A DNA stretch of 64,000 nucleotides from Bacteroides sp. (lineage in GTDB: Bacteria; Bacteroidota; Bacteroidia; Bacteroidales; Muribaculaceae): assembly GCA_014802045.1 (NCBI GenBank), contig JAAVDA010000012.1, forward strand, positions 1 to 64,000. The letters are read 5' to 3'. A program made the translations under genes and the position numbers. Below, in pieces: positions 4,054 through 63,800 of the stretch. Below the pieces are notes generated by a model. It searched no databases and had not been told where the DNA came from. It saw only the letters and a program-made list of their open reading frames with translations. Numbering within the stretch: position 1 is the first letter of the stretch; each line of letters begins with the position of its first letter.

Positions 4054-5373
4054 ATGGGACAAATGATAGCTATAGTGGGGCGCCCCAATGTGGGCAAATC
4101 CACTCTTTTCAACCGACTGACTCAGAGCCGCACGGCGATAGTTGACGATACGGCGGGCACAACCCGCGACCGTCAGTATGGCAAGGTGGACTGGAACGGG
4201 AAGGAATTCTCGATTGTAGACACCGGCGGCTGGGTGGTCAATTCGGACGATGTGTTTGAAACCGAGATCAATAAGCAGGTGCAGCTTGCCATAGAACAAG
4301 CCGACGAGATATTGTTTGTGGTTGATGCAATGAACGGTGTGACCGATCTGGACGACCATGTGGCCGAGATATTGCGCAAATCGCGCAAACCGGTGATTCT
4401 TGTGGCTAACAAGGTGGACTCCAATGATTGGCTCTATAATGTGCCTGAGTTTTACTCTCTGGGGCTCGGAGAGCCGTATCCGGTGAGCGCTGTGAACGGT
4501 TTCGGTACGGGCGACCTGCTCGACGAGGTTGTGCGCAAGCTCCCTGAGAAGAGCGCCGACGAAGAGGATACGCTCGAAGATCTGCCGAAATTTGCCATCG
4601 TAGGTCGTCCGAATGCCGGCAAATCGTCGATAATCAACGCCTTTATCGGCGAGGACCGTCATATCGTGACAGATATCGCAGGCACTACCCGCGACAGCAT
4701 CTATACGCGCTACAATAAGTTTGGCTTCGATTTCTATCTGGTCGACACGGCCGGTATCCGCAAGAAAACAAAGGTGAACGAGGATATAGAATATTACTCC
4801 GTGATCCGTTCCATCCGTGCCATCGAGGCCTCGGATGTGTGCATACTGATGATTGATGCCACACGAGGCATAGAGAGTCAGGATGTGAGCATTTTCTCGC
4901 TGATACAGCGCAATAAGAAGGGGCTGGTGGTGTGTGTGAACAAATGGGACCTCGTAGAGAACAAGTCGCCCGAAGCAATCCGTCATTTTGAGGCAGCTAT
5001 CAGAGAGCGATTTGCTCCGTTCACCGATTTCCCGATTCTTTTCACATCGGCTCTCACTAAGCAGCGTATATTCAAGGTGCTTGAAACGGCGGTAGAGGTC
5101 TACAACAACCGTAAGCGTGTGGTGCCCACGTCGCAGCTCAACACTGTGATGCTTGAGGCCATAGCAGCCTATCCGCCACCTGCCAACAAAGGGAAATATG
5201 TAAAGATTAAGTATGTGACCATGCTTAAAGGAGCGCAGATACCCACATTTATATTCTTCTGCAATCTGCCGCAGTGGGTGAAGGAACCCTACAGGCGCTA
5301 TCTGGAGAATAAGATTCGCGAGAACTGGGACTTTACCGGTACGCCAATCAATGTGTATATGCGCGAGAAATAA
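4054..5373 (+). CDS. der: ribosome-associated GTPase Der (EngA)
   Basis: A 439-residue double GTPase needed for 50S subunit assembly. Two tandem G domains are clear: GRPNVGKST near residues 9-17 with DTGGW and NKVD, and GRPNAGKSS near 182-190 with DTAGI and NKWD. A C-terminal KH-like domain follows (about 355-439). Only Der has this tandem layout. It ends at a good intrinsic terminator (5400-5439). Confidence 0.97.
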
Positions 5374-5399
5374 CAACTTTAGGAGATAAACAAGACGAA

Positions 5400-5439
5400 C
5401 CTCCGGCCGTGACGATGTCATGACCGGAGGCTGCTTTTT
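5400..5439 (+). terminator. terminator after der
   Basis: CCTCCGG (5400-5406) pairs with CCGGAGG (5424-5430), extended inside by CGTGAC/GTCATG pairing. A GCTTTTT tract follows directly. This is a standard rho-independent terminator. Confidence 0.8.
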
Positions 5440-5460
5440 GTGGGAATAGATGGATCGGAA

Positions 5461-5600
5461 GCGGCGTATCGAGCCGCTATTCATAATGTGTCCCGCCGGG
5501 ACACATCGCGCCCCCGAGAGGCTTGCCCCGGGGTTCATCCCAGGGTTTCGGACAATCCCACCCCTCCGGGAGGCGCCGAGATGCGAGGGATGCTCCGCTA
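5461..5600. repeat. dispersed palindromic repeat, copy A
   Basis: This contains the perfect palindrome TGTGTCCCGCCGGGACACA (5487-5505), then CCCCCGAGAGGCTTGCCCCGG, split here only by line position, then TTTCGGACAATCCC and CCCTCCGGGAGG. The same order of segments occurs at 16521-16640, and in inverted orientation at 62760-62827 and 63530-63612. It occupies the der/Sel1 convergent gap. It is non-coding; short ORFs in it are repeat artefacts. Confidence 0.8.
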
Positions 5601-5640
5601 AGGGATGGGAAGACCGAGAACGAAGATGGGAGAGGTGGGC

Positions 5641-6822
5641 CTATTCGGGGATTTTTTCAATGATTTTATAGGCGGTAAGACTGCCGAGGTTGGCGGCTTT
5701 GCGGGTATAGTCGGCGGCCTTGGTGGGGTTGGCTTTTACGCCGTCGCCTTTGCGATATAGGTCTGCCATGCGTTCATACACGAGTGCCATGGCAGGAGCA
5801 GGGACTATAATCGGTTCGTAGCATTGGCTTATGAAGTCACCGCTGCGGTTGAGAAATTCGTCGTTGTAGCTCATGCTGCCAAGATAGAAGAGTGACCATT
5901 GGTCTCCTTTTTCTGCGGCTTGTCCGCGGGATATGACTCCGGGCTTGAATCCTTCCTTATAAATGGGCTCATCTTTCAGTGGGTGACCTACGGTGCTGTT
6001 AAATCCGTTGGCGAGGGCGAGCGAGTTGAGCACGAAGGCGGTGTTTTTGTCGTCGCCGAAGCGTTCGCCGCGCAGTGGGAGCTGAAGATTGGAGCGTGCG
6101 ATGTCGTTGCCGAATTCTCCGGCAAGATAGGTCCAGAAGAAGGCGTCGGGCATATCGACCTTGCCATACCACTGACGCTGAAGGGCGGAGCCATATTTTG
6201 CAGCTCCGCCGGCATCGCAGAGCATAGCGGCGCGTTGAAAGTATTCTCTGGCTTTGGTACGGTCTTTTTTCACTCCATAGCCTTTGTCGTACATCTCGCC
6301 CATGATTGTGAGGGCGAAGGGGATGTGATCAGTGCCGGCCGCATTGAAGTAGTCCCAGGATCGGGCGTAGTCTTTTTTGTTGTTGTAATATATGCCGAGG
6401 TAATCATTGGCTTTTTTGTAGCCGGCACGTGAGGCGGCTTCCATCAGGCTCAATCCTTCGTTTTGCTTTTCGGGGAAGAGATAGGCGGTTTTGTGGAAGG
6501 TGTAGAGATAGCCGAGTTCGGCTTTGGCGCGGTCATTTTTATCTGCAACGAGCCGGAGGCAGCGAGCTGCAAGTTCGGGGCTCCAGACATTGTGGTAGAG
6601 GGCTTTGTCGACCACTCCGTCGGCAGAGAACTTGCCTTGGGCGTAGGCTTTCTTCACTGCCTCATATAGGGCATCGGCTTTTTGCTGTGCGGCCGGAGAG
6701 ACGGTGACATGAACATCTGCCGGAGAAACATAGCCTTTTGTAGAGTTTTTTTGGTTGGAATCTGTGGCTTGGGCTGACAGGGTGACGGCAATAATTGAGG
6801 CCATCAAAAATATCTTTCTCAT
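5641..6822 (-). CDS. secreted Sel1-like repeat protein
   Basis: A 393-residue protein with a signal peptide (about 1-19, ending SAQA) and Sel1/TPR-like alpha-solenoid repeats. The clearest repeats are GEMYDKGYGVKKDRTKAREY (middle) and ADLYRKGDGVKANPTKAADY (C-terminus), each followed by an AA-x-x-G helix end. Sel1 repeats mediate protein-protein contacts; no catalytic domain is seen. It is probably periplasmic or surface-exposed. It is transcribed toward der and divergently from mdh. The function is unknown beyond scaffolding. Confidence 0.8.
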   Translation of the reverse strand: MRKIFLMASIIAVTLSAQATDSNQKNSTKGYVSPADVHVTVSPAAQQKADALYEAVKKAYAQGKFSADGVVDKALYHNVWSPELAARCLRLVADKNDRAKAELGYLYTFHKTAYLFPEKQNEGLSLMEAASRAGYKKANDYLGIYYNNKKDYARSWDYFNAAGTDHIPFALTIMGEMYDKGYGVKKDRTKAREYFQRAAMLCDAGGAAKYGSALQRQWYGKVDMPDAFFWTYLAGEFGNDIARSNLQLPLRGERFGDDKNTAFVLNSLALANGFNSTVGHPLKDEPIYKEGFKPGVISRGQAAEKGDQWSLFYLGSMSYNDEFLNRSGDFISQCYEPIIVPAPAMALVYERMADLYRKGDGVKANPTKAADYTRKAANLGSLTAYKIIEKIPE

Positions 6823-15280: not shown

Positions 15281-16369
15281 ATGAAAGACTTCGACAAAAT
15301 AGTGAGTCAGTTTGACGTGAAAGGTACGGTAGACACCGTGAAACCTTTGGGCAACGGCCTTATCAACGACACTTATATCGTGCGCACAAGCGAGGAGGAT
15401 GCTCCCGACTATGTGTTGCAGCGCATCAATCACCATATCTTTACCGATGTGGATACTCTTCAGACCAATATCGCAGCCGTGACTTCTCATATCCGCCGCA
15501 AGCTTGAGGCAGCGGGGGCTGACGATATAGACCGCAAGGTGCTCACATTTATCCCGGTGAAGGGCGAAGATAAGACCTATTATTTCGATGGCGATTCCTA
15601 CTGGCGCATGATGGTGTTTATTCCGCGCGCTCACACTCTGGAGGCAGTCAATCCCGAGTCGTCAAGGTTTGCAGGCGAGGCTTTCGGTGAGTTTCAGGCC
15701 ATGCTTGTGGATATCGATGCCGATCTCAAGGAGAGCATTCCCGACTTTCACAATATGGAGTTTCGTCTCAAACAGCTCCATGATGCTGTGGCTGCCGATC
15801 CAGTGGGTCGCGTGAAAGAGGTGAAGCCTCTGCTCGACGAGCTTGAAAGCCGTGCGGAAGAGATGTGTAAGGCAGAACGGTTGTATCGTGAGGGTAAGTT
15901 GCCCAAACGTATATGCCATTGCGACACGAAAGTCAACAATATGATGTTTGATGAAGATGGGCGCATTCTCTGTGTGATAGACCTTGACACAGTTATGCCG
16001 TCGTTCATATTCAGCGACTATGGCGATTTTCTGCGCACCGGCGCCAACAAGCTTGCCGAGGATGACCCCAATATCGAAGGGGTGGAGTTTGACATGGATA
16101 TCTTCCGCGCGTTTACCGAAGGCTATCTTTCGTCGGCCCGTTCGTTTCTCACTCCGCTTGAAATAGAAAACCTGCCTTATGCCGCAGCCCTCTTCCCTTA
16201 TATGCAGGCTGTGCGTTTCCTCACCGATTATATAAACGGTGACACCTATTATAAGATAAAGTATCCGGAGCATAACCTCGTGAGAACTCGCAACCAGTTT
16301 AAGCTGCTGCAGAGCATAGAGGAGAAGACCCCCGAGATGCGCGAATTTATCGCCGCTCAGCTCGCTTGA
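15281..16369 (+). CDS. APH-family sugar kinase, N-acetylhexosamine 1-kinase-like
   Basis: A 362-residue member of the aminoglycoside phosphotransferase/choline kinase fold. The catalytic loop reads CHCDTKVNNMMFD (Brenner-type H-x-D-x-x-x-x-N) and is followed by the metal-binding VIDLDT and SDYGDFLR. The N-terminus GNGLINDTY is the nucleotide loop. The length and the HCDTKVNN motif are like NahK, which makes GalNAc-1-P or GlcNAc-1-P. The divergent GH109-type gene supports a GalNAc role (inference). Other APH-fold small-molecule kinases remain possible. Confidence 0.72.
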   Translation: MKDFDKIVSQFDVKGTVDTVKPLGNGLINDTYIVRTSEEDAPDYVLQRINHHIFTDVDTLQTNIAAVTSHIRRKLEAAGADDIDRKVLTFIPVKGEDKTYYFDGDSYWRMMVFIPRAHTLEAVNPESSRFAGEAFGEFQAMLVDIDADLKESIPDFHNMEFRLKQLHDAVAADPVGRVKEVKPLLDELESRAEEMCKAERLYREGKLPKRICHCDTKVNNMMFDEDGRILCVIDLDTVMPSFIFSDYGDFLRTGANKLAEDDPNIEGVEFDMDIFRAFTEGYLSSARSFLTPLEIENLPYAAALFPYMQAVRFLTDYINGDTYYKIKYPEHNLVRTRNQFKLLQSIEEKTPEMREFIAAQLA

Positions 16370-16392
16370 TATCATACACAATTATATAAATC

Positions 16393-16430
16393 AGGGCGCA
16401 TGACTTCTATTAGTTATGCGCTCTGTTTGT
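16393..16430 (+). terminator. terminator of the kinase-like gene
   Basis: AGGGCGCAT (16393-16401) pairs with ATGCGCTCT (16416-16424, one G-U pair), followed by GTTTGTTTT. Confidence 0.7.
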
Positions 16431-16520
16431 TTTAGCTTGATGCGTGATTTAGGTTGAGCGATAGCGATACCAAAGGATTATTTCTGCGGCGAAGGCGCTT
16501 CGGGAGGAGAAACGGTGGGC

Positions 16521-16640
16521 AATAATGTGTCCTGCCGGGACACATTGCGTCCCCTATAGGCTTACCCCGGGGGGGCGGACAATCCCGCCTCTCCGGGCCG
16601 CGGGGGCGGTGCATGCGGGCTTCATCCCGGAGGCGACGCG
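16521..16640. repeat. dispersed palindromic repeat, copy B
   Basis: Palindrome TGTGTCCTGCCGGGACACA (16526-16544, one mismatch), then CCCCTATAGGCTTACCCCGG, GCGGACAATCCCGCC and CTCCGGGCC. These are the same ordered blocks as copy A at 5487. It fills the convergent gap between the kinase-like gene and rpsA. Confidence 0.8.
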
Positions 16641-16657
16641 CGTGGGGCGGGGTGGTG

Positions 16658-16698
16658 AAAAAAAGTGCGGGCAGCGCCGGGGTTGCCGGGCTGCCCGC
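16658..16698 (-). terminator. terminator of rpsA
   Basis: On the minus strand GCGGGCAGC (16698-16690) pairs with GCTGCCCGC (16675-16667), followed by ACTTTTTTT. Confidence 0.8.
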
Positions 16699-16745
16699 TG
16701 TGGGTGAAGGGGTCTGCGGTTTATGGCAGACTCTTTATCGGTTTA

Positions 16746-18530
16746 TCACTTGCCTTCGAGTTTCTCCTTAAGGGCTGCGAGAGCTTCGAGATCGCCGAGG
16801 GTGGTCTTTTCGAGGGGTGTGTTGAGCATCGGAGTTTCCTCTGCCTGACGCTTGGGAGCGCGCTTGGCCTTGCGGTTTTCGTTGCGCTCTGCCTTAGCTT
16901 CATCTTCGAAGATGCGGCTGTGAGAGAGGATGATGCGCTTGCTGTCTTTGTTAAACTCAATTACCTTGAAGTTGAGCTTTTCGTCTACCTGGGCGGAGGT
17001 GCCGTCTTCCTTAACGAGGTGTTTCGGAGTGGCGAAGCCTTCCACGCCGTAGGGGAGTGCGATTACAGCGCCTTTCTCTACCATCTCTACGATTGTGCCT
17101 TCGTGAACGGAACCTACGGTGAACACAGTTTCGAATACATCCCAGGGGTTTTCTTCGAGCTGCTTGTGGCCGAGGCTCAGACGACGGTTGTCTTTGTCGA
17201 TTTCGAGTACCTGAACGTCGATGTTGGCACCGATCTGAGTGAATTCGCTGGGGTGTTTCACCTTCTTTGTCCAGGAAAGGTCGGAGATGTGGATAAGGCC
17301 GTCTACGCCCTCTTCGATTTCAACGAATACGCCGAAGTTGGTGAAATTGCGCACTTTGGCGGTGTGCTTGCTGCCGATGGGATATTTGGTTTCGATATTT
17401 TCCCAGGGATCAGCCTTGAGCTGCTTGATGCCGAGGCTCATCTTGCGGTCTTCGCGGTCGAGGTTGAGCACTACGGCTTCGATTTCGTCGCCAACCTTCA
17501 TGAAGTCTTGAGCGCTGCGGAGGTGCTGGCTCCAGGACATCTCGCTCACGTGGATAAGACCTTCGACACCGGGAGCGATTTCTACGAATGCGCCGTAGTC
17601 GGCCATAACAACAACGCGTCCCTTCACCTTGTCGCCGACCTTCATGTCGGGGTCGAGGGCATCCCAGGGATGGGGCTGGAGCTGCTTCAGACCGAGGGCA
17701 ATGCGCTTCTTCTCGTCGTCGAAGTCGAGGATAACGACGTTGAGCTTCTGGTCGAGCTGCACAACTTCTTCGGGGTGGTTCACGCGGCCCCATGAGAGGT
17801 CGGTGATGTGGATGAGACCGTCTACGCCGCCGAGGTCGATGAACACACCGTAGCTGGTGATGTTTTTGACAGTGCCTTCGAGCACCTGACCTTTTTCGAG
17901 CTTGGCGATGATTTCGCGCTTCTGCTGTTCGAGTTCGGCTTCGATGAGGGCCTTGTGGCTGACAACGACGTTTTTGAACTCCTGATTGATCTTAACGACC
18001 TTGAATTCCATGGTTTTGCCCACGAAGATGTCGTAGTCGCGGATGGGGCGAACGTCGATCTGGGAGCCGGGGAGGAATGCCTCGATACCGAACACGTCGA
18101 CAATCATGCCGCCTTTGGTGCGACACTTGATGTAGCCCTTGATGATTTCGTCTTTTTCCAGCGCCTCGTTGATGCGGTCCCATGAGCGGGCGGCGCGGGC
18201 TTTGCGGTGTGAGAGAATGAGCTGACCTTTCTTGTCTTCCTGGTTTTCGATGAATACCTCTACGGTGTCGCCGACCTTGATGTCGGGGTTGTAGCGGAAT
18301 TCGTTGACAGGAATGATACCGTCGCTCTTGTAGCCGATGTTGACCACTGCCTCACGCTTGTTGAGGGCGATGATGGTGCCTTCGATTACTTCTTTGTCTT
18401 TGACGGTGTTGAGAGACTCATCGTAGGTCTTGGTGAGTTCCTCACGCGATTTTTCGGAGTTGACGGTGCCGTTTTCGTAGGCATCCCAGTCAAAATCCTC
18501 GACTGCGGTGTTGATTACTTTTTCAGCCAT
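16746..18530 (-). CDS. rpsA: 30S ribosomal protein S1
   Basis: A 594-residue S1 with six S1 (OB-fold) RNA-binding domains, recognised by their starts: EVIEGTIIALNK, EIIKGYIKCRTKGG, QVLEGTVKNITSYGVFIDLGG, split from DKVKGRVVVMADYGAFVEI, SKHTAKVRNFTNFGVFVEI and SVHEGTIVEMVEKG. The middle four have the DGLIHISDLSW type ending. S1 docks structured mRNA on the 30S subunit, which matters in Bacteroidetes because leaders lack Shine-Dalgarno sites. The basic C-terminal tail (about 545-594) is longer than in E. coli S1 (557 aa). Strong promoter at 18607-18636. Confidence 0.96.
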   Translation of the reverse strand: MAEKVINTAVEDFDWDAYENGTVNSEKSREELTKTYDESLNTVKDKEVIEGTIIALNKREAVVNIGYKSDGIIPVNEFRYNPDIKVGDTVEVFIENQEDKKGQLILSHRKARAARSWDRINEALEKDEIIKGYIKCRTKGGMIVDVFGIEAFLPGSQIDVRPIRDYDIFVGKTMEFKVVKINQEFKNVVVSHKALIEAELEQQKREIIAKLEKGQVLEGTVKNITSYGVFIDLGGVDGLIHITDLSWGRVNHPEEVVQLDQKLNVVILDFDDEKKRIALGLKQLQPHPWDALDPDMKVGDKVKGRVVVMADYGAFVEIAPGVEGLIHVSEMSWSQHLRSAQDFMKVGDEIEAVVLNLDREDRKMSLGIKQLKADPWENIETKYPIGSKHTAKVRNFTNFGVFVEIEEGVDGLIHISDLSWTKKVKHPSEFTQIGANIDVQVLEIDKDNRRLSLGHKQLEENPWDVFETVFTVGSVHEGTIVEMVEKGAVIALPYGVEGFATPKHLVKEDGTSAQVDEKLNFKVIEFNKDSKRIILSHSRIFEDEAKAERNENRKAKRAPKRQAEETPMLNTPLEKTTLGDLEALAALKEKLEGK

Positions 18531-62434: not shown

Positions 62435-62559
62435 AACCCCAACAGCACCCCGGCAAGTCTACACAAACATTAGGTTGATATAAAAACCTCCCGTTCCCGG
62501 ACGGCAGCCTCCCCCAACAAGGCTCCGCCCGGGAACCCTTTTCTCCACCCCCACCTCCC

Positions 62560-62830
62560 GCCCATCCCCGGCTTCTCCCCGTGTCCGCATCCCCCTCACA
62601 CGCTTCGAGCGGCGGGACGATGCCCGCATGCACCGCTCCCGGCGTGCCCCGTCCCCACCTAGCCCCCAGGCAGATTTACCCACGTCCCGGAGGGGCGCTG
62701 CGTGCCCCGTCCCCACCCAGACCCGCGGCAAATCCACCTACGTCCCGGAGGGGCGTATTTGTCAGAAACCCCGGGCTTTAGCCCGGGGAGAGAAAGTAGA
62801 AGAGAAGGTGTCCCGGCGGGACACCTTGTA
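62560..62830. repeat. palindromic repeats upstream of the transposase (copies C and partial)
   Basis: A partial unit at about 62562-62640 shares the CCCCGGCTTCTCCCCGTGTC and CACGCTTCGxGxGGCGGGAC blocks with 63440-63492 and 63740-63789. Two CGTCCCGGAGGGGCG-like boxes follow (about 62682 and 62740). Then come CCCCGGGCTTTAGCCCGGGG (62769-62788) and a perfect palindrome of 11-bp arms centred on 62816, TGTCCCGGCGGGACA at its core. Non-coding. Confidence 0.8.
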
Positions 62831-62836
62831 GGTCGT

Positions 62837-62869
62837 TTTGGTTTTTACGCCGATTATTCCCTATATTTG
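62837..62869 (+). promoter_or_regulatory. promoter of the transposase
   Basis: TTTG (62837-62840), 21 bases, TATATTTG (62862-62869), only 8 bases before the ATG at 62878. It begins ten bases after the palindrome centred on 62816. Confidence 0.65.
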
Positions 62870-62877
62870 CATTCATT

Positions 62878-63321
62878 ATGAGCAAAGTTAAAGCATTATA
62901 CCACATTGTGTTTTGCACCAAAAGTCGCAAAATGACCATCCCCCTTGCCTACAAAGAAGACCTGTATCGCTTCATATGGCGTAAACTTGATGACAACAGA
63001 TGCAAGTTGCTCCGTATAGGTGGAATCCAAAATCATATTCATATACTCATAGACCTTCATCCTACGGTAGCGTTGTCAAGCCTCCTACAGGTGATTAAAG
63101 GTAGTTCGAGCATATGGATGAAATCAGACCCGCGTTTCGCCCACTTTGAAGGTTGGGCCGGCGACTATTTTGCCTGCACTCTCTCTCCAGATGCACGTTC
63201 GCCATTGATTGAATACATTAAGAATCAAGAGCAGCATCATTTAGGGCAACCTATTGAAAATGAAATCAGCACAATGTACAAGTGTGCTGACCTCTTGTAT
63301 GATGAACGTGATTTGCAATAG
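62878..63321 (+). CDS. IS200/REP-associated (Y1, HUH) transposase
   Basis: A 147-residue single-domain Y1 transposase. Marks: HIVFCTKSRK near the N-terminus, the metal-binding HUH motif HIH (His53, His55) in GGIQNHIHILID, and the catalytic Tyr113 in YIKNQEQHH. Length matches TnpA/RAYT proteins, which cut and join single-stranded DNA at hairpins. No TnpB or cargo gene accompanies it. Both sides are lined with palindromic repeats of a family also found elsewhere in the window, as RAYT genes are with REP sequences. All key residues are intact, so it may be active. Confidence 0.9.
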   Translation: MSKVKALYHIVFCTKSRKMTIPLAYKEDLYRFIWRKLDDNRCKLLRIGGIQNHIHILIDLHPTVALSSLLQVIKGSSSIWMKSDPRFAHFEGWAGDYFACTLSPDARSPLIEYIKNQEQHHLGQPIENEISTMYKCADLLYDERDLQ

Positions 63322-63322
63322 T

Positions 63323-63612
63323 CACGATGCGTCGCCTCCGGGACGCTTCTCATGTTCATCGCCTTCTCTGGGTTGAAACCCGGAGCTGCCCACAAATCCA
63401 CCCCCTCCGGGGACGGCATCCCATCGCCATCTCTCCCGCCATCCCGGCTTCTCCCCGTGTCCGCATCCCCCTCACACGCTTCGGGTGGCGGGACGATGCC
63501 CGTATGCGCCGTCCATGGCGCGGCCCGGAGGGACGTGATTGTCCGAAACCCCGGGCTTTAGCCCGGGGCAAGCCTATCGGGGGGCAGGATGTGTCCCGGC
63601 AGGACACATTAT
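63323..63612. repeat. complete composite palindromic repeat unit downstream of the transposase
   Basis: About 290 bp with three palindromes in order: a CTCTGGGTTGAAACCCGGAG type (near 63372), CCCCGGGCTTTAGCCCGGGG (63549-63568) and TGTGTCCCGGCAGGACACA (63590-63608). The unit begins two bases after the transposase stop codon. Reverse-complemented, its second half matches copies A (5487) and B (16526). Confidence 0.8.
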
Positions 63613-63619
63613 GACACTG

Positions 63620-63800
63620 CACGATGCGTCACCTCCGGGATGCTTCTCATGTTCATGCCTTCTCCGGGTTGAAACCCGGAGCTGCCCACGAATCCGCCCC
63701 CTCCGGGGACGACATCCCAGCCCCATGTTTCCCGTCCTCCCCGGCTTCTCCCCGTGTCCGCATCCCCTCACACGCTTCGGGTGGCGGGAGCGGCGGGGGC
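63620..63800. repeat. second, truncated composite unit
   Basis: A direct repeat of the first about 170 bp of the preceding unit (63323-63492 versus 63620-63789), including CTCCGGGTTGAAACCCGGAG (63662-63681). It breaks off before the second and third palindromes. Confidence 0.8.

Follow-up and report, generated by a model that had tools for sequence, protein, structure and literature searches.

A probable REPtron-like locus in Bacteroidales: a low-copy Y1/HUH enzyme of the TnpA_Y1 subclass 1.2 type between inverted three-hairpin repeats

Here, we ask how a gene for a Y1/HUH transposase is related to the palindromic repeats that surround it in a 64,000-nucleotide stretch of a Muribaculaceae genome (the window). 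The preliminary description of this DNA had recognized an intact 147-residue enzyme with an HIH motif and Tyr113, and our analyses agree: the open reading frame at 62878..63321 (+) is intact, and its 147-aa product, a Y1/HUH protein of the TnpA_Y1 subclass 1.2 type, matches Pfam Y1_Tnp with an E value of 1.6e-21 and has the HUH histidines H53-I-H55 in the context NHIH and the tyrosine in the motif Y113-IKN-Q117-EQ-H120-H121. H53, H55, Y113, and Q117, as well as H120 and H121, are invariant in an alignment of 20 homologues. The best sequence matches of the protein are IS200-family TnpAs, and the NCBIfam IS200 model scores it above cut-off; in the predicted structure (pLDDT 87.8), the fold is nearest to those of the ISDra2 and IS608 TnpAs and less close to that of E. 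coli TnpAREP (4er8). There is no TnpB-sized neighbour, and no other ORF of >130 aa lies between 62411 and 64000. The genome (G000) has six genes of the Y1 type with different palindromes near each, and the five paralogues are 25-51% identical to the window protein, none being near-identical. Two of them, L003 (G000:C12:71241-71678) and L002 (C8:46255-46692), are ~50% identical to it and have their own palindrome sets; a window-type unit is located at C12:70520, 700 bp upstream of L003. L004, L005, and L006 are more distant Y---Q--HH-like paralogues (25%), of which one reads YIDNQWQPH, and have yet other palindromes nearby.

The gene is flanked on both sides by a three-hairpin unit, and both units point outward, i.e. 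the gene lies between inverted repeats. In the upstream unit, all on the + strand, the gene-proximal hairpin A (AAGGTGTCCCGGCGGGACACCTT) is at 62805..62827, the middle hairpin B (CCCCGGGCTTTAGCCCGGGG) at 62769..62788, the linker ATTTGTCAGAAA, which forms the 5' foot of hairpin B, at 62757..62768, and the outer hairpin C (ACGTCCC GGA GGGGCGT) at 62740..62756. R1, a generic unit model made from other genomes only and containing no window sequence, matches this unit at 62739-62789 with an E value of 4e-6 when run over the 64 kb with filters off. In the downstream unit, the gene-proximal hairpin A at 63329..63346 (−) is followed by hairpins B and C, reading outward, at 63365..63416 (+; 61 bits with R2, the window-family model described below, and 13 bits with R1); the individual hairpins are at 63329-63346, 63366-63385, and 63398-63416. 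Hairpin A, the innermost, reads GTGTCCCGGCGGGACAC upstream and GCGTCGCCTCCGGGACGC downstream; hairpin B, next outward, reads CCCCGGGCTTTAGCCCGGGG or CTCTGGGTTGAAACCCGGAG; the linker from B to C is TTTCTGACAAAT, or CTGCCCACAAAT downstream, and leads to hairpin C (CGCCCCTCCGGGACG). The centres of hairpins B and C are ~30 nt apart in the window units. The middle palindromes CCCCGGGCTTTAGCCCGGGG and CTCCGGGTTGAAACCCGGAG had been taken to be separate palindromes; they are, rather, variants of one unit position. Folded as single-stranded DNA, the upstream unit has z scores of −5.8 to −6.4 relative to dinucleotide shuffles, and the downstream unit folds less strongly (z −1.9 on the better strand). 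Rfam gave no family match for the hairpin repeats. The CGTC with which hairpin C begins recalls the CGTC-tagged REPs (PMC3733652), but we rejected a match to them because CGTC is an unpaired tag in those repeats and lies within the stem here.

The inverted units of the gene locus recur, without a gene, in a second element at 63520-63712: a left B-C unit at 63519..63569 (−; R2 69 bits), a hairpin A (GTGTCCCGGCAGGACAC) at 63588..63610 (+), and a right unit with hairpins A, B, and C at 63626..63712 (+; R2 61 bits; R1 match at 63661-63712 with an E value of 3.5e-4). The direct repeats outside the hairpin units are longer and GC-rich: a 107-bp repeat just outside the units at 62545..62651 (+), with a second copy at 63421-63527 (82%), was probably duplicated together with the hairpin units, and 62642-62697 and 62700-62755 form a tandem 58-bp duplication that carries hairpin C. 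Separately, positions 51-100 of the window hold another unit of the B-C type (ACCCCCGACAAATGTCGGGGG...CGGCCTCCGGCCG; R1 E value 7e-4), presumably the partner of a different one of the six Y1 genes.

The same ordered palindromes had been reported at 5487 and 16526, always in intergenic gaps. The location holds for both copies, which lie between ORFs (gaps 5373..5641 and 16369..16746), and the order holds for the first. This copy, at 5469..5575 (+), has the whole unit (R2 61 bits), with hairpin A at 5486-5505 and a B-C unit at 5525-5575, and its part 5469-5505 has the cross-phylum linker GCTATTCATAATG beside hairpin A, on the side away from the B-C unit. The copy at 16520..16602 (+) is degenerate; hairpin A, the GTGTCC palindrome, is kept, while hairpin B, the middle palindrome, is degraded (23 bits). 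For a genome-wide count, we built R2 from 13 units of the window family. R2 found 22 copies on ten contigs of the window genome (a 2.2-Mb, 76%-complete assembly), 16 of them above 50 bits, whereas the 33 congeners had between 0 and 3 weak matches each (best 35.6 bits). Accordingly, the congeners do not match the window genome in repeat number, and the family is restricted to the genome with the window gene. In the window genome, an exact-match search for the GTGTCC palindrome found only eight copies, and R1 with the strict filters used for >40 genomes found none. In a BLAST search with the 190-bp element, an undercount in which six candidates per genome were scored, the element was absent from 117 relatives save for two short fragments (25 and 31 bases).

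To which class does the enzyme belong? Quentin 2018 defined TnpA_Y1 subclass 1.2 by the signature Y---Q--HH and an HUH motif with I or V (PMC6006769) and described its members as low-copy proteins of median 148 aa with divergent paralogues, present in Bacteroidetes and Cyanobacteria, with REP given as 'no' (PMC6006769). Judged by its sequence motifs (Y---Q--HH and NHIH), its length of 147 aa, and its low copy number with divergent paralogues (25-51% identical), the window enzyme is assigned to this subclass. The published trait of having no REP sequences does not apply to the window locus; because 'no REP' is a reported observation and not the basis of the subclass definition, we read the mismatch as a correction and not as an exclusion. 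The locus shares with RAYTs the flanking cognate palindromes and the dispersed intergenic copies; however, a classical RAYT (class 2) is rejected because the protein reads YIKNQ in place of the Y---NP motif and scores 19.1 bits with NCBIfam REP_Tyr_transpos against a cut-off of 80. The GT[AG]G foot of canonical REPs is absent, the feet being GAAA-type in the window family and AATA[GA] in most other phyla. The proposed association of a transposase with palindromes in Bacteroidales is well supported, but it involves neither a RAYT proper nor a system specific to Bacteroidales, as it occurs in several phyla. Subclass-1.2-like genes also occur outside Bacteroidota and Cyanobacteria, in Avibacterium paragallinarum (L113) and in Verrucomicrobiota (L072 and L074); the gammaproteobacterial and other outlying genes suggest horizontal transfer.

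The sequence and fold matches, together with the resemblance of 63520-63712 to a gene-bearing element minus its gene, would suit an ordinary IS200/IS605 element whose terminal hairpins were misread as a family of repeats and whose decayed ends (MITEs) make up the gene-less copies. We consider this unlikely. There are no near-identical gene-bearing copies, the paralogues being at most 51% identical, and no TnpB-sized gene, a frequent though not constant partner in such elements, adjoins; the ends differ from those of IS200 in being inverted arrays of multiple hairpins, of which one side often has several; the repeats outnumber the genes by 22:1 in the window family; and the R1 unit is absent from four of four true IS200/IS605 loci of the class 1.1 type. 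(A plasmid search returned mostly IS200 transposases, and the four examined were class 1.1-like.) The gene is therefore not a standard IS200 with its own ends.

Among 80 named homologue loci from Bacteroidota, Verrucomicrobia, Planctomycetes, Cloacimonadota, Neomarinimicrobiota, and others, the density of palindromes is 7.3/kb within 150 bp of the gene versus 0.7/kb beyond 1 kb, i.e. approximately tenfold higher, and triloops make up 64% of the near palindromes versus 17% of the far ones. At 59% of 70 loci, the two 250-bp flanks are inverted repeats of each other, compared with 2.5% for 319 control genes taken from these loci and likewise 2.5% for cross-locus pairs. The spacing between hairpin centres near the genes peaks at 29-30 nt. 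Counted without any sequence requirement, a hairpin pair 28-31 nt apart is present in 51 of 154 flanks (33%; 39 of the 80 loci) versus 9 of 1438 control windows (0.6%), and approximately half of the homologues have no recognizable B-C pair. Hairpin B lies at a fixed distance from the gene (median 62 nt), and the linker beside it is [CT]TATT in 33 of the 51 pairs without selection for it; on the opposite strand, this linker reads AATA[GA] directly 5' of hairpin B, the place occupied by GTAG in REPs and by the guide in IS200. The aligned unit consensus is CCnCGGGTTTCACCCGnGG-CTATTCAnATT-nAACCCCTTCGGGGTTn; it derives from 49 units picked for the linker TA and perfect stems, and both features, like the pair counts from this set, are partly by construction. 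The loops are strand-asymmetric: on the outward strand, the outer triloops are TNC in 29 of 40 and GNA in none of the 40. DNA GNA triloops closed by C-G are unusually stable. The stable triloops and the strand asymmetry fit a single-stranded DNA substrate of which one strand is used. In the wider sample, R1 also detects units next to homologues, among them L046 and L049, where inverted units lie on either side; a megaplasmid homologue with Y---Q--HH has an R1 unit on both sides. We conclude that the arrangement of flanking repeats belongs to subclass 1.2 across several phyla. A broader reading, which we put forward tentatively as it could well prove wrong, is that the subclass 1.2 enzymes mark out a separate cross-phylum superfamily of mobile palindromes, the substrate of which would be, instead of a single hairpin, two hairpins 29-30 nt apart with a conserved foot-bearing linker (AATAG/A), taken as the GNA-loop strand, with one enzyme or two bridging the hairpins.

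Gene and repeat also co-occur and co-diverge. In 246 Bacteroidota genomes, the window genome being excluded, R1 repeats were found in 46 of 110 genomes with the gene versus 13 of 136 without it (odds ratio 6.8, P=4e-9, uncorrected for phylogeny), with means of 3.2 and 0.34 copies, respectively; because 24 candidates per genome were scored, high counts saturate. Across this sample, the repeats track the transposase gene. A deeper search of seven gene-bearing genomes found 6 to 88 copies in each. The 13 genomes with repeats but no detected gene hold up to 9 copies; five genomes (G221, G358, G127, G200, and G297) have 5-9 generic units and no detected subclass-1.2 gene, and these units are either orphan repeats or point to missed genes. 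Distances between proteins and between units correlate (Mantel r=0.51, n=35; 0 of 5000 permutations as high).

The congeners of the window genome, the nearest at ~81%, are too distant for an empty-site comparison at the window. Of 20 copies sampled in Belliella, 19 are intergenic, several of them between convergent genes, and most have the order A-B-C. A relative that is 88-97% identical at the compared loci lacks the two-copy cluster found at C11:245.5k, its sequence running straight through GTCGAAATGACC at the aligned position; another two copies occur in just one of the species, and one copy is common to both. The junctions are messy, with adjacent repeats and no clean single-element junction. 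Because they are not clean, the comparison supports turnover of the repeats and not a defined transposition reaction. At L192, L193, L198, and L225 in Belliella, the hairpin units are interspersed with, and apparently interrupt, a second repeat family (CGTCCTGAAAATAGTTGACAC... and GTCGAAATGACC / CCCCGTAATTCTACGGGGCAGGC).

The intergenic positions, several between convergent genes, would be expected if the palindromes were elements unrelated to the enzyme, such as terminators, RNA-stability elements, or protein-binding sites, roles that are possible for REP-type repeats, and if the gene merely sat in repeat-rich DNA. We regard this as improbable: the enrichment at the gene is sharp, two-sided, and absent from control genes, with hairpin B at its median of 62 nt, Rfam has no match, and gene and repeat vary together. 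A mobile enzyme that inserts preferentially into pre-existing composite palindromes, the repeat being target and not cargo, would account for the flanking repeats and for repeats surviving in gene-less genomes, but is very improbable, as the flanks are inverted outward units, spaced constantly from either end of the gene, and not one interrupted repeat, repeat and protein co-diverge, and gene-less genomes seldom contain repeats.

Altogether, we think it likely that the window contains a REPtron-like subclass 1.2 locus, in which a low-copy Y1/HUH enzyme lies between inverted cognate three-hairpin repeats with further copies in intergenic regions, and we infer that the enzyme spreads or maintains these repeats. 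We propose that, where single-stranded DNA is exposed, e.g. at a replication fork, the strand with the GNA-loop short hairpins folds; the enzyme would then bind hairpin B plus its 5' foot, which is GAAA in the window family and AATAG/A in most phyla and stands where REPs have GTAG and IS200 has its guide, and Y113 would cut next to the unit. Gene-less units might thereby be moved or repaired into other intergenic sites, while the gene itself behaves like a resident gene and does not multiply as an insertion sequence.

These findings assign repeats to an enzyme subclass described without any and an enzyme to palindromes previously without one. Most work on REPs so far concerns Proteobacteria, and the simple unit signature, which is countable in any genome, makes the co-evolution of domesticated transposases and palindromes testable outside that phylum. 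Among known systems, REPtrons (TnpAREP/RAYT with REP/BIME/REPIN, TnpA_Y1 class 2; PMC6006769, PMC8266576, PMC2817692) share with the window locus a single low-copy Y1 gene that lies between inverted cognate palindromes, has further copies of them scattered through intergenic DNA, and co-evolves with a repeat family of its own. They differ in protein class (Y---NP versus Y---Q--HH) and in their GT[AG]G foot, whereas the subclass 1.2 unit is a hairpin array with a fixed spacing of 29-30 nt and, in most phyla, an AATA[GA] foot. Subclass 1.2 as published (PMC6006769) has the same motif, length, prevalence in Bacteroidota, low copy number, and divergent paralogues; however, the flanking repeats are strong in approximately half or more of the loci, and the subclass occurs beyond Bacteroidota and Cyanobacteria. 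The published statement that it lacks REPs is thus corrected, prior descriptions having been checked in the open-access literature. In TIRYTs/TIRtrons (Di Nocera 2013, PMC3733652), inverted repeats, some of them self-complementary and dispersed, likewise flank a Y1 gene, but these enzymes are mostly of subclass 2.1, many with GGGGWSAS-type TIRs. IS200/IS605 elements (IS608, ISDra2) have the closest catalytic core and fold and also recognize hairpins on single-stranded DNA, but they spread as gene-bearing copies that are nearly identical to one another and have a single subterminal hairpin at each end. The system is thus intermediate between the IS200 insertion sequences, its closest protein relatives, and the REPtrons, with which it shares its arrangement.
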